Below are positions 34,593-62,238 of a stretch of 64,000 bases of DNA, piece by piece. Position numbers and translations under genes: made by a program. Each line of letters starts with the position of its first letter. Positions within the stretch are counted from its first letter, which is position 1. The DNA lies in the NCBI RefSeq assembly GCF_022690685.1, contig NZ_JALCYY010000010.1, positions 1-64,000 of the forward strand. The letters are read 5' to 3'. The notes beneath the pieces were generated by a model. That model was given only the letters and a program-made list of their open reading frames with translations. It was not told the origin of the DNA and searched no databases. The DNA is from Anaeromyxobacter terrae (GTDB lineage Bacteria; Myxococcota; Myxococcia; Myxococcales; Anaeromyxobacteraceae).

Positions 34593-34922
34593 TCAGGGCG
34601 CGGACGCCGCGGGGGTCTGCGGCGTCGCCGCGTGCCCCGGGCGCACGAGCGAGATGGCGAACAGCACGGCGCCGACGAGCGCGTTGCTGACGCGGGCGAT
34701 GCCCGACGCGTTCGTCAGGAAGAGCGCCGCGATGGCGAGGAGCACGGCGACCACCGAGATCACGTACCGCACGCCGGGCTTGCCCTGCGCCGCGAACGCG
34801 GCGACCGCGACGACGAGCGCCGAGATGGCCGTGAACGTGGCGGAGAACGGCGTCTGCGGGAGCGCGAAGGCGGAGATGAGCAGCCACGTCGCAAAGATCA
34901 GGTTCAGGGTGACGAAGCGCAT
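34593..34922 (-). CDS. Small four-helix membrane protein
   Basis: Hydrophobic protein of 109 residues with four predicted membrane helices (NLIFATWLLISAFAL, AISALVVAVAAFAAQG, YVISVVAVLLAIAALFL, VSNALVGAVLFAISLV) connected by very short loops, and a Pro/Thr/Ala tail. The pattern resembles SPW-repeat proteins, but the diagnostic SPW triplet is missing, so the assignment is loose. Length, high hydrophobicity and GC-rich third positions support a real gene. No partner gene is adjacent in an operon. Confidence 0.6.
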   Translation of the reverse strand: MRFVTLNLIFATWLLISAFALPQTPFSATFTAISALVVAVAAFAAQGKPGVRYVISVVAVLLAIAALFLTNASGIARVSNALVGAVLFAISLVRPGHAATPQTPAASAP

Positions 34923-35081
34923 CGACAGCCTCCTTCGGCCAAGAGCGTCGGCCGATCGGCGGAGCACGTCGAGGCGTCCTCGCGGAGTGGCTCGGACGCG
35001 GGAACGGCCAGCGGGCGGGCGTGCCTCCGGGCGGCCCCCGCCCCGCCCGTGAGCCGCGCGCCTCGCCGCCACACCCGGGTG

Positions 35082-35087
35082 TAGAGT
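35082..35087 (+). promoter_or_regulatory. -10-like TAGAGT upstream of the UGA-containing gene
   Basis: TAGAGT sits 7 nt before the GTG at 35095, as at other leaderless genes of this window. It favours 35095 over 35173 as the true start. Confidence 0.4.
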
Positions 35088-35094
35088 CGCGCAC

Positions 35095-35694
35095 GTGACC
35101 ACCGAGCGACGGCTCCTCCTCCGGGCGAGCGGCTTCTCCTGAGGGCCCGTCGCGGGCCTCGGCTGAGGCACCGTGCTCGCGCCCGTGCTGGCGCGCCTCT
35201 CCCGGATCCCCGAGCTCGCGCGCGCCCAGGTGGACGCGGCGGGCCGGCTCTTCCTCCTCGAGCTCGCGCCCGGGGCCGATCCCGACGGCGCGCTCGCCGC
35301 GGCGCGGGCGGTCCTCGGCGCCCGTGCGCGCCCCGTCCCCGACGCTGAGGCGCAGCTCGAGAGCGTCCCGCGGGGCGACCGCTGGTTCACAGCGGAGGAC
35401 ATCCGCGGGCTGTCGTACGTCGAGGCGCGCGTCCTCGCGGCCCGGGTCTGCGACCGGGCGCTGCGCGAGGTGCCGCTCGAGACCGCGCTGGCGGACCGGC
35501 TCGAGGACGCGGCGGTCGTCGAGATCCGCGCCGCGCTCGATCGCGTCCACGACGAGGGCGGCCGGGACTCGAGCGCGTGGTTCGATCCGGCCTGGCCCGG
35601 CATCGCCGCGGCGATCGCGGCGCGCCTGCGGCAGGCGCTGGACGCGGACGGGCTCGCGGCGCTCCGCGAGGCGCTCCTGCGCGCGCGCACGTGA
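35095..35694 (+). CDS. Candidate selenoprotein with HMA-like N-terminus (two in-frame UGA)
   Basis: A conventional reading gives only a 173-residue protein from the GTG at 35173. The same frame, however, continues upstream to a GTG at 35095 preceded by a TAGAGT box, broken by only two TGA codons (35140 and 35164). Every other codon there but one (CGA) ends in G or C, the coding signature of this genome. Read with Sec, the 199-residue protein starts with a segment like the heavy-metal-associated (HMA) fold: LLLRASGFSU, where GMxC is expected, then LARLSRIPELARAQVDAAGRL resembling the second helix and strand. Sec would be residues 16 and 24. A helical domain of unknown family follows (about 110-199). 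A 6-bp hairpin with a GU-containing loop (35178-35195) begins 12 nt after the second UGA. If UGA is not read, translation would begin at 35173. Function unknown; metal or thiol/selenol chemistry is a guess. Confidence 0.5.
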
Positions 35695-35710
35695 CGGCGC
35701 GCCCCGGCGA

Positions 35711-36370
35711 TCAGCGCAGCGCGCGGATCGCGCCCGCGACCACGGCGAAGTGACACGCCGCGGCGGCCACCACGAGCAGGTGGAAGATCTCGTGGAACCC
35801 GAACACCGCGGGGAACGGATCCGGCCGGCGCAGCGCGTAGATCACCGCGCCGGCCGTGTACAGGAGCCCGCCGCCGAGGAGGAGCGCGAGGGCGCCCGCA
35901 CCGATCGCCGCGTGGAGCGCCGGAACGACCGGCACGACGAGCCACCCGAGCAGCACGTACAGCGCGGCCATGAGCGGCTTCGGGGCGGCGACCCACACGA
36001 TCGAGAGGACCACCCCCGCCGCCGCGCCGAGCCAGACCGCCGCGAGCAGCGGCCGGCCGGGGTGGCCGAGCAGGAGGCACAGGGGCGTGTAGGTCCCGGC
36101 GATGAGGACGAAGATGGCCGAGTGGTCGACGCGCCAGAGGATGCGGCGCGCACGGGCCGACCAGGTGGGGCGGTGATACACCGCGCTCGCGAAGAAGAGC
36201 GCGAACAGGCTCGCGCCGTAGGTGAGGGCCCCGGTGCGGGCGGTGACCGTGTCGGCGTTGACGAACAGCAGCGCCCAGGCCGGTGCCGCGAGGTACGCGG
36301 CGATCTCGTGCGAGACGCCGCGCAGCAGCGGCTTCACGCGCTCCACACCTGCCACCCGCTCCTCCGCCAT
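35711..36370 (-). CDS. Hemolysin III / PAQR-family membrane protein
   Basis: Seven-helix membrane protein of 219 residues of the hemolysin III (YqfA/PAQR) family. The family hallmarks are visible: the early His in LRGVSHEIAAY, Ser and His in FFASAVYHRPT, WRVDHSAIFVLIAGTYTPL, and the C-terminal His pair in GFHEIFHLLVVAAAACHF, the residues that form the zinc site in PAQR homologues. Bacterial members affect membrane fluidity or fatty acid homeostasis; haemolytic activity is not to be assumed. The ATG at 36370 is preceded by GGAGGGG; a GTG 18 nt upstream is a weaker alternative. Confidence 0.85.
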   Translation of the reverse strand: MAEERVAGVERVKPLLRGVSHEIAAYLAAPAWALLFVNADTVTARTGALTYGASLFALFFASAVYHRPTWSARARRILWRVDHSAIFVLIAGTYTPLCLLLGHPGRPLLAAVWLGAAAGVVLSIVWVAAPKPLMAALYVLLGWLVVPVVPALHAAIGAGALALLLGGGLLYTAGAVIYALRRPDPFPAVFGFHEIFHLLVVAAAACHFAVVAGAIRALR

Positions 36371-59163: not shown

Positions 59164-62100
59164 ATGAGCATCAGCAGAAGAAACTGGCTCAAGTTGACGG
59201 CCGGCGGCGGCGCCGGCCTCGCGCTCGCCGAGCTCGGCTTCAGCGCGGCGAAGGTCCAGGCGGCGACGGGGCACCTGAAGCTCACGGGCGCGAAGCAGTT
59301 CACGACCGCCTGTAACTTCTGCTCCTGCGGCTGCGGCATGGTCTGCAACGTGGTGGACGGCAAGCTCGTCAACCTCGAGGGCGATCCGGACCACGTCATC
59401 AACCAGGGCGCGCTGTGCTCGAAGGGCGCGGCGATGCAGGCGACCCACGAGTCCGACCGGCGCGTGAAGGCGCCGATGTACCGGGCGCCGGGCTCGGACC
59501 GCTGGCAGGAGATCAGCTGGGACGAGGCGCTCGAGAAGCTCGCGCGCAAGGTGAAGGACGTCCGCGACTCGACCTGGATCGCCACCGAGAAGGACGGCGA
59601 CGTCGAGTATCCGGTCAACCGCACCGACGCGATCGGCTTCCTCGGCGGCGCGCAGAACACCAACGAGGAGTGCTACCTCTGGAACAAGATGGGGAGGCTC
59701 TTCGGGACGAACTTCGTCGAGCACCAGGCCCGACTTTGACACAGCCCCACGGTCCCCAGTCTGGGGGCCACGTTCGGCCGTGGCGCGATGACGAACCACT
59801 GGGCGGATCTGCAGAACGCCAAGGTGTTCCTCATCGAGGGCAGCAACGCCGCCGAGAACCACGTGATGTCGATGAAGTGGATCCGGAAGGCGCAGGCGAA
59901 GGGCGCGAAGATCATCCACGTCGACCCGCGCTTCAACCGCACCTCGTCGATCGCGGACATCTACGCGCGCATCCGCCCCGGCGCTGACATCGCGTTCCTG
60001 GGCGCGGTCATCCACCACGTCCTCGAGAACGCGCTCTACGACGTCGAGTACGTGAAGCTGCACACGAACGCGCTCCTCCTCGCGAAGGACGAGTTCGGCC
60101 TCGACGACGGCGTCTTCACCGGCTACCACGAGGACAAGCACAAGTACGACACCGCCTCGTGGGCGTACGACCTCGACGCCGCGACGCAGAAGCCGAAGAA
60201 GGCGGCGAGCCTCGACGACCCGCGCTGCGTGTTCTCGAAGCTGAAGCGGCACTTCGCGCGCTACACGCCCGAGGTCGCCGAGGAGATCTCGGGCGTCCCG
60301 GCGGAGCAGATCAAGCTCATCGCCGAGACGTTCGCGAACAACCGGCCGGGCACGATCCTGTACGCGCTCGGGATGACGCAGCACACGGTCGGCATCCAGA
60401 ACATCCGCTGCTACGGCATCCTCCAGCTGCTCCTCGGCAACATCGGCAAGGCCGGCGGCGGCGTGAACGCGCTGCGCGGCGAGCCGAACGTCCAGGGCGC
60501 CTGCGACATGTCCGTCCTGAACGGCTACATGTTCGGCTACATCAACGCCCCGAACCACAACCACCCGACGCTCGAGGCGTGGACGAAGGACAACGGCACG
60601 TTCCGCCGGAAGTTCACCGTCAACGGCCTCAAGGCGTGGTTCGGCGACAACGCCACCGCCGAGAACGACTTCGGCTGGAGGTGGCTCCCGAAGAAGAACG
60701 GCGCGAAGGACTACACCGTCTTCGGGATGATCGACGACGCGTACGCCGGGAAGCTGAAGCTCCTCTGGGCCGTCGGGCAGAACCCGATGGTCACGAACCC
60801 GAACCTGAACTACGTGCACGAGGCGCTGTCGAAGCTCGACATGCTCGTCGTGCAGGAGCTCTGGGACACGGAGACGGCGAGCTTCTGGCAGCGGCCGGGC
60901 GCCGACCCGAAGTCGATCCAGACCGAGGTGCTCCTCCTCCCCGCCGCGTACTTCATGGAGAAGGAGGGCACGATCAGCGGCTCCGGCCGCCTCGTGCAGT
61001 GGCGCTACGCGGCGGTGAAGCCGCCCGGCCAGGCGAAGGCGGACCTCGAGATCATCGACACGGTCTTCCGCAAGGTCCGGGGCCTCTACGCCGGCTCGAC
61101 CGATCCGAAGGACGAGCCGCTCACGAAGGCGGTCTGGAACTACCCCGCCCAGAACACGGCCGAGGCGGTGCTCCAGGAGATCAGCGGCCGCGTGCTCGCC
61201 GAGGTGACGCTGCCCGACGGCAAGGTGCTGCAGCCCGGCGCCTTCGTCGCCGGCATCGGCCAGCTCCAGGCGGACGGCTCGACGTCCTCGGGCGCCTGGA
61301 TCTACGCGGGCGTCTTCGGCGGCGGGAAGAACCTCTCGAAGCGCCGCGACGCGAAGACCGATCCCTCGGGCCTCGGGATGTTCCCCGGCTTCGCCTGGAC
61401 CTGGCCCGGCAACATGAAGATCCTCTACAACCGCGCGTCCTGCGACGCGGACGGCAGGCCCTGGGCCGGCACGACCCCGCTCGTCTGGTGGGACGCGACC
61501 GAGAAGAAGTGGAAGGGCGTCGACACGCCGGACGTGCCGGACGCCACGAAGGGCCCGGACACGCCGGAGGGCCAGCGCGCGTTCCGCATGAACGGCGAGG
61601 GCATCGGCCGGCTCATGGCGGCGGTCTACAAGGATCCTGACGCGAAGGAGAAGGAGAAGGGGCTGCCGCGCGACGGCTCGTACGTGCCGAAGGACGGCCC
61701 GTTCCCCGAGTTCTACGAGCCCATCGAGAGCCCGGTCGCGAACGTGCTGCACCCGAAGGCGCAGCACAACCCGTGCGTGAAGTACCCGCGCGTCCCGGGC
61801 AAGCAGCCCGTCGGCACGGCGAAGGACTTCCCGTACGTCCTCATGACGTCCTCCATCGCGGAGCACTGGTGCGCCGGGTCCACGACCCGCAACGTGCCGT
61901 GGCTCAACGAGCTGCAGCCGGAGTGCGTCGTGGAGCTGCCGACCCAGCTCGCGGAGAAGCTGCGGGTGAAGGGCGGCGACAAGGTGCGGGTCTCGTCGGC
62001 GCGCGGTGAGATGCTCGTGAAGGCCGTCGTCACGAAGCGCATGCAGGTCATGAGGATCGCCGGCCAGGACGTGCCCGTCGTGTGGATGCCCTACAACTGG

Positions 62101-62238
62101 GGCTTCAAGGGGCTCTCCACCGGTCCGTCGACCAACGTGCTGACCATCGACGCCGTCGACCCGGGCGCCGGCACGCAGGAGACCAAGGCCTGCCTCGTCA
62201 ACGTGGTGCGCGTGGAGGAGGCGGTGGCGCAGCGCTAG
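59164..62238 (+). CDS. fdnG: Selenocysteine formate dehydrogenase, catalytic subunit
   Basis: Molybdopterin formate dehydrogenase of 1,024 residues; oxidises formate to CO2. It is one gene, not two: the frame continues through TGA at 59737-59739, which encodes Sec192 in EHQARLUHSPTVPSLGATFGRGAM, at the position known from E. coli FdnG (Sec196). The ATG at 59164 follows GGAAAGGGAAG. The N-terminus has a Tat signal (SRRNWLKL), so the enzyme faces the periplasm. Ligands for one [4Fe-4S] cluster are in ACNFCSCGCGMVC and ALCSKG. The C-terminal molybdopterin-dinucleotide-binding domain includes SIAEHWCAGSTTRNVPW and ELPTQLAEKLRVKGGDKVRV. It is followed after 29 bp by the fused electron-transfer subunit and is probably driven by the sigma-54 promoter at 59029. 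Confidence 0.96.
59737..59739 (+). other. UGA codon read as selenocysteine (Sec192)
   Basis: In-frame TGA in a fully conserved context (EHQARL-U-HSPTV). The flanking frames are identical, and the codons on both sides encode family-typical sequence, so premature termination can be excluded as the main reading. Confidence 0.95.
59751..59769 (+). promoter_or_regulatory. SECIS-like hairpin
   Basis: GGTCCCC-AGTCT-GGGGGCC, a 7-bp stem (one wobble) with an AGUCU loop resembling the GGUCU loop of bacterial SECIS elements. It starts 12 nt after the UGA. Outer pairing of CCACGG (59747) with CCGTGG (59778) may extend it. Confidence 0.7.

Follow-up and report, generated by a model that had tools for sequence, protein, structure and literature searches.

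The stretch 35095-35694 of the window, the whole 64,000 nucleotides of Anaeromyxobacter terrae DNA that were analysed, very probably encodes a selenoprotein with two selenocysteine (Sec) residues, as judged from comparative sequence analysis. The initial annotation had proposed an unannotated selenoprotein of unrecognised type at this site, and the proposal is supported by the conservation of both in-frame TGA codons, by a Cys exchange at residue 24 in one homolog and by the lack of a matching entry in a published catalogue and in NCBIfam. The features of the gene and of a control gene in the same window are as follows.

35095..35694, forward strand: putative selenoprotein gene of 199 aa, with Sec at residues 16 and 24, a GTG start and a TGA stop (35692-35694)
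35140..35142, forward strand: UGA1, the putative Sec16 (GFSU); TGA in every one of the 24 double-TGA homologs and also in L113, the U/C homolog
35164..35166, forward strand: UGA2, the putative Sec24 (GLGU); TGA in 24/24 double-TGA homologs and TGT (Cys) in L113
35082..35087, forward strand: -10-like box TAGAGT (TANNNT), 7 nt 5' of the GTG start, by direct reading
35156..35169, forward strand: hairpin H1 (GCCUC-GGCU-GAGGC), 18 nt 3' of UGA1, a possible SECIS for UGA1
35178..35195, forward strand: hairpin H2 (CGCGCC-CGUGCU-GGCGCG), putative SECIS element with its loop 17 nt past UGA2, within bSECIS limits in 24/24
35104..35340, forward strand: predicted HMA-like domain (beta-alpha-beta-beta-alpha-beta), residues 4-82, from AlphaFold2, Foldseek/VIA and hhalign
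35392..35685, forward strand: predicted C-terminal four-helix domain, residues 100-197, AlphaFold2 pLDDT 92.5 when folded alone
59170..62208, forward strand: formate dehydrogenase alpha subunit with one in-frame TGA, the positive control for Sec decoding in the genome

From the GTG at 35095, the TGAs at 35140 and 35164 are the sole stops before the terminal TGA, and CGA at residue 5 is the single sense codon between 35095 and 35172 that does not end in G or C. Both readings agree with the initial annotation, as does the TAGAGT box upstream of the start. Of the 17 members from the same family of organisms, 13 have a TANNNT box 6-9 nt upstream of the predicted start; in the window, 9 of the 1341 ATG/GTG triplets (0.7%) have one. 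The box before GTG 35095 suggests a leaderless or nearly leaderless transcript. Pfam and NCBIfam scans of the read-through protein found no family above cut-off, and the product in Anaeromyxobacter terrae is without an obvious signal peptide.

Conservation of the two TGA codons

Within the genus, searches with the read-through protein detected the gene in 8 of 9 genomes, at identities down to 43% and with exactly two TGAs in every full-length match. At the family level it was present in 16 of 24 genomes, with two TGAs throughout except in partial or spurious matches without N-terminal coverage. The phylum search added one more Myxococcota genome from a different family. A double-TGA DNA pattern run over 84,980 genomes further retrieved a 'Deltaproteobacteria' MAG together with three distant relatives; two of these carry the Planctomycetota label, and the third was assigned to the phylum via a later search. 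A profile search of Planctomycetota gave two further members. The resulting 24 distinct genes come from 22 genomes (15 of the Anaeromyxobacter-like family, one other Myxococcota, the 'Deltaproteobacteria' MAG and five Planctomycetota), span at least two phyla and carry TGA at both sites without exception. The sequence between 35095 and 35172 is likewise conserved in related and distant genomes, as the initial annotation would have it. A chance open frame or a sequencing error is ruled out by the 24 conserved double-TGA homologs. The family motif reads G-F-[SG]-U-G-P-V-x-G-L-[GA]-U-G.

A single further homolog, L113 of genome G947, combines TGA at residue 16 with TGT (Cys) at residue 24, so that the first site is TGA in 25/25 homologs. 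Of the Cys homologs anticipated at residues 16 and 24, the one at residue 24 was thus found and none at residue 16. A search for the Cys/Cys form with the pattern CGPV[APT]GL[GA]C in 84,980 genomes returned 33 DNA matches and, by tblastn, zero relatives; the classical Sec/Cys argument therefore comes down to one sequence and one site, residue 24. Four viral-contig matches to a Cys pattern were discarded, having stops or a similarity limited to the motif. Weak matches (L081-L088 and L114-L119) were likewise rejected as relatives, being mostly ordinary HMA domains or noise, and a plasmid search gave no match. Separately, L110:1931-2431 (G399) encodes a homolog of the C-terminal domain that lacks the part with Sec; it lies next to a sigma-54 activator, and its genome has no tRNA-Sec above cut-off. 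This is possibly a frameshift or a Sec-free relative.

Sec decoding and translation start

The genome of the window carries a tRNA-SeC (anticodon tca), a SelB match above the curated cut-off and three formate dehydrogenase alpha subunits with one in-frame TGA each, in keeping with the earlier statement that this organism decodes UGA as Sec in its formate dehydrogenase. Outside the organism's own family, six of seven genomes (G195, G196, G198, G199, G200 and G421) have a tRNA-Sec above cut-off, as does the U/C genome G947; the MAG G197, which carries the gene, has none above cut-off.

Two readings would dispense with Sec. Translation might begin at GTG 35173 (residue 27) or at the GTG of residue 31, the upstream part being a leader peptide or regulatory RNA; the open reading frame from 35173 is open, and the GTG at residue 31 is invariant. 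But codon 27, the conventional start at 35173, is GTG in no more than 4/24 homologs. Codons 17-19, between the UGAs, have pairwise mismatches of 0.053 at first, 0.028 at second and 0.598 at third codon positions, a coding signature in the same frame. Furthermore, the predicted start overlaps an upstream stop as GTGA or ATGA in L096, L097, L098, L100, L101 and L104 and as TGATG in L111 (overlaps in L092 and L094, whose frames have an atypical G+C profile, were left out of the count). In the planctomycetal L108 (G421), a DF-family selenoprotein domain precedes the family member in an in-frame fusion; the DF part matches NF049942 at 85.3 bits (cut-off 70). UGA2 is replaced by TGT in L113, and if translation began at residue 27 or 31, a domain predicted with confidence would lose beta1 and part of helix 1. 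Starts at 35173 or residue 31 are ruled out by the unconserved codon 27, the coding signature and the start/stop overlaps, and we regard the whole reading as highly improbable. Even less credit goes to decoding of the TGAs as another amino acid, such as Trp, by near-cognate suppression. Nothing specific speaks for it, and all tested genomes outside the organism's own family but one MAG have a tRNA-Sec above cut-off, the sole substitution seen is to Cys, not Trp, and a bSECIS hairpin stands at the model distance from UGA2.

The fused gene, L108:9584-10594, encodes a lipoprotein and contains three in-frame TGAs in a single gene.

Hairpins at the UGA codons

The hairpin with a GU-containing loop at 35178-35195 was confirmed, with stem CGCGCC/GGCGCG and loop CGUGCU. 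This hairpin, H2, begins its loop 17 nt past UGA2 and lies within the published bSECIS limits (PMC13188914) in 24/24 homologs, as do about 7-38% of synonymous recodings in trials. At its codons 29 (GCG), 30 (CCC), 31 (GTG) and 33 (GCG), codon usage is exceptionless wherever the residue is kept, against family-wide frequencies of 0.42-0.48 for GCG, CCC and GTG, and synonymous constraint is absent at codons 17-19, 23 and 35-38. The columns of both hairpins are nearly invariant, which makes compensatory changes uninformative. An Rfam scan of 34900-35750 found no match. Just beyond these codons, codon 34 (Arg) is CGA in 12/23 homologs, compared with about 5% of Arg codons in the family genes; a pair between this codon's A and the U at 35177 can extend H2.

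Hairpin H1 shares nucleotides with UGA2, and the constrained codons 21, 22 and 25 fall at its position. Its stability is that expected from the protein sequence alone and no better than in synonymous recodings, and the fold fails in some homologs. The bSECIS model is satisfied at UGA1 in 7/24 homologs, again no better than in synonymous recodings. H1 is thus a possible, not an established, SECIS for UGA1. H2 lies 41 nt from UGA1, and L113 retains the H2 sequence despite the loss of UGA2, from which H2 may serve UGA1 as well; that it serves both UGAs is plausible.

Predicted fold and its relation to HMA domains

AlphaFold2, run with an 18-sequence alignment, predicted the protein at a pLDDT of 90.9, with a strand (residues 6-10), a helix (22-36), two strands (41-46 and 52-57), a second helix (63-74) and then a helical C-terminal part. 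In this model, both Sec residues are located between beta1 and the start of helix 1. Foldseek with residues 4-82 returned mostly HMA chains as top matches (probability 0.9-1.0). VIA gave HMA Z-scores of at most 7.5, but AcrB porter domains scored almost as high; taken without the profile evidence, the structural match would be weak. In hhalign, the family profile aligned with ten HMA domains at 95.9%, placing PVAGLGU on VxGMTC, and an hmmsearch against PDB sequences ranked the CopA and MerA HMA domains top (E 0.001-0.01). The gathering score of PF00403 was not reached; one of 17 members matched, at E = 0.21. The family has GLxUGxx in place of GMxCxxC, and residue 27, the second HMA Cys position, is variable.

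The initial annotation had described an HMA-like N-terminus with Sec16 (GFSU) as the first Cys. The HMA likeness stood in both structure and profile comparisons; the assignment shifted, as the profile alignment puts U24 (GLGU), not U16, in place of the first HMA Cys; U16 precedes it by eight residues, within an enlarged loop. The ten HMA domains begin at V, and the hhalign alignment consequently says little about U16. Residues 4-82 are predicted to form an HMA-like domain. Searches of PDB and Pfam with only the C-terminal domain gave no significant match, and the modelled four-helix domain is without a confident relative.

Gene neighbourhood and putative function

The window gene has no recognised metal-related neighbour, and mercury-linked neighbours are absent at most Anaeromyxobacter loci. 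At L100, by contrast with these, MerA (492.6 bits), a MerP-like HMA protein and a CopZ-type protein are encoded in the vicinity, and a sigma-54 AAA+ activator overlaps the start of the selenoprotein gene; by sequence reading, L101 has a similar layout. MerR-type regulators lie near L105 and L107, and an ArsC-like protein near L106. In L096, L098 and L111 of the Anaeromyxobacter family, the stop of an upstream bacteriohemerythrin or bacteriohemerythrin-like gene (by resemblance and clustering in L096 and L111) overlaps the selenoprotein start. No conserved operon was found across the whole family. In several Planctomycetota members and L113, the domain appears to be exported as a lipoprotein, according to a lipoprotein signal read by eye; this would put it at the cell surface.

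These data enable us to propose a model. The sequences show that the gene is a member of a conserved family with read-through of two UGA codons; very probably, tRNA-Sec and SelB insert Sec at both, guided by H2 and possibly aided by H1. The product is predicted to consist of an HMA-like domain followed by a four-helix domain, and two selenolates, eight residues apart in the beta1-helix 1 loop, would stand in for the CxxC pair of HMA domains. The selenolate pair might then bind a soft metal ion or metal compound, with Hg(II) as the leading candidate, and the protein could be a scavenger, carrier or sensor. We somewhat favour the two selenolates as ligands for a soft metal, Hg(II) foremost. More tentatively, U-x7-U may be a chelator on an HMA-like scaffold that would bind Hg(II) or a soft metal far tighter than CxxC does, with a single SECIS for two UGAs 24 nt apart and no dithiol form known.

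The protein could instead be a true selenoprotein that acts as a redox enzyme, Sec16 and Sec24 forming a diselenide that reduces a substrate such as a metalloid oxyanion, a peroxide or the thiol of a partner. According to PMC13188914, a redox role is assumed for most selenoproteins known so far, and bacteriohemerythrin is the overlapping upstream gene at three loci; yet the fold is HMA-like, not thioredoxin-like, and the mer, CopZ and MerR genes nearby are suggestive of metals, which leaves a redox role rather unlikely. It is still less probable that the selenoprotein is the sensor subunit of the sigma-54 activator, its metal-bound Sec domain controlling the AAA+ protein encoded upstream. The activator overlapping the gene start in L100 has no further sensor domain in a Pfam scan and a related gene occupies the same place in L101, but such a neighbour occurs in a minority of loci and is absent beside the window gene.

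Relation to known systems

A 2026 review (PMC13188914) catalogues 119 prokaryotic selenoprotein families or subfamilies, with those credited to Haft and Tolstoy 2025 in its table; U-x7-U on an HMA fold is among none of the 119, and no model of NCBIfam release 20 matches the family. The review does list Sec-containing MerP and P-type ATPase HMA domains and the UxxU metal-binding (seleno)protein NF041115. The present family is very probably an uncatalogued selenoprotein family, Sec-containing HMA proteins as such being already known.

The closest likeness is to HMA domains of PF00403 (CopZ, MerP, the MerA N-terminal domain and CopA), which share the beta-alpha-beta-beta-alpha-beta fold, resemble PVxGLxU in their VxGMTC and are the best matches in the profile and structure searches. 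Unlike them, the new family has no CxxC, a longer beta1-helix 1 loop carrying U-x7-U and an extra C-terminal four-helix domain, and it falls below the Pfam cut-off. With NF041115 and the Sec-containing MerP/P-type ATPase HMA domains it shares the HMA fold and Sec in the metal-binding loop, and a Cys-containing relative of the NF041115 type lies near the gene in L100; these proteins have U-x2-U or UxxC, whereas U-x7-U is found here, without an NCBIfam match. The DF family (seleno)protein NF049942, the hypothetical protein DF of PMC12013277, which is fused in frame in L108 with each part having its own UGA, is an unrelated domain with a single Sec. TsoB NF045694 (UxxxxU, PMC13188914) also has two Sec a few residues apart, but it is a rhodanese/DsbD fusion, and the new family has no match to it in NCBIfam.

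In standard annotation, the genes of this family would be shortened or missed, and methods relying on Cys homologs would tend to overlook the family, given that no Cys/Cys form was found. Having two close UGAs and one strong SECIS, the family is a ready-made case for testing how a single element can serve two codons. Moreover, with a Sec pair on a metal-binding fold and mercury-resistance genes next to some of its members, it allows a test of whether Sec may serve as a dedicated soft-metal ligand as opposed to a redox catalyst.
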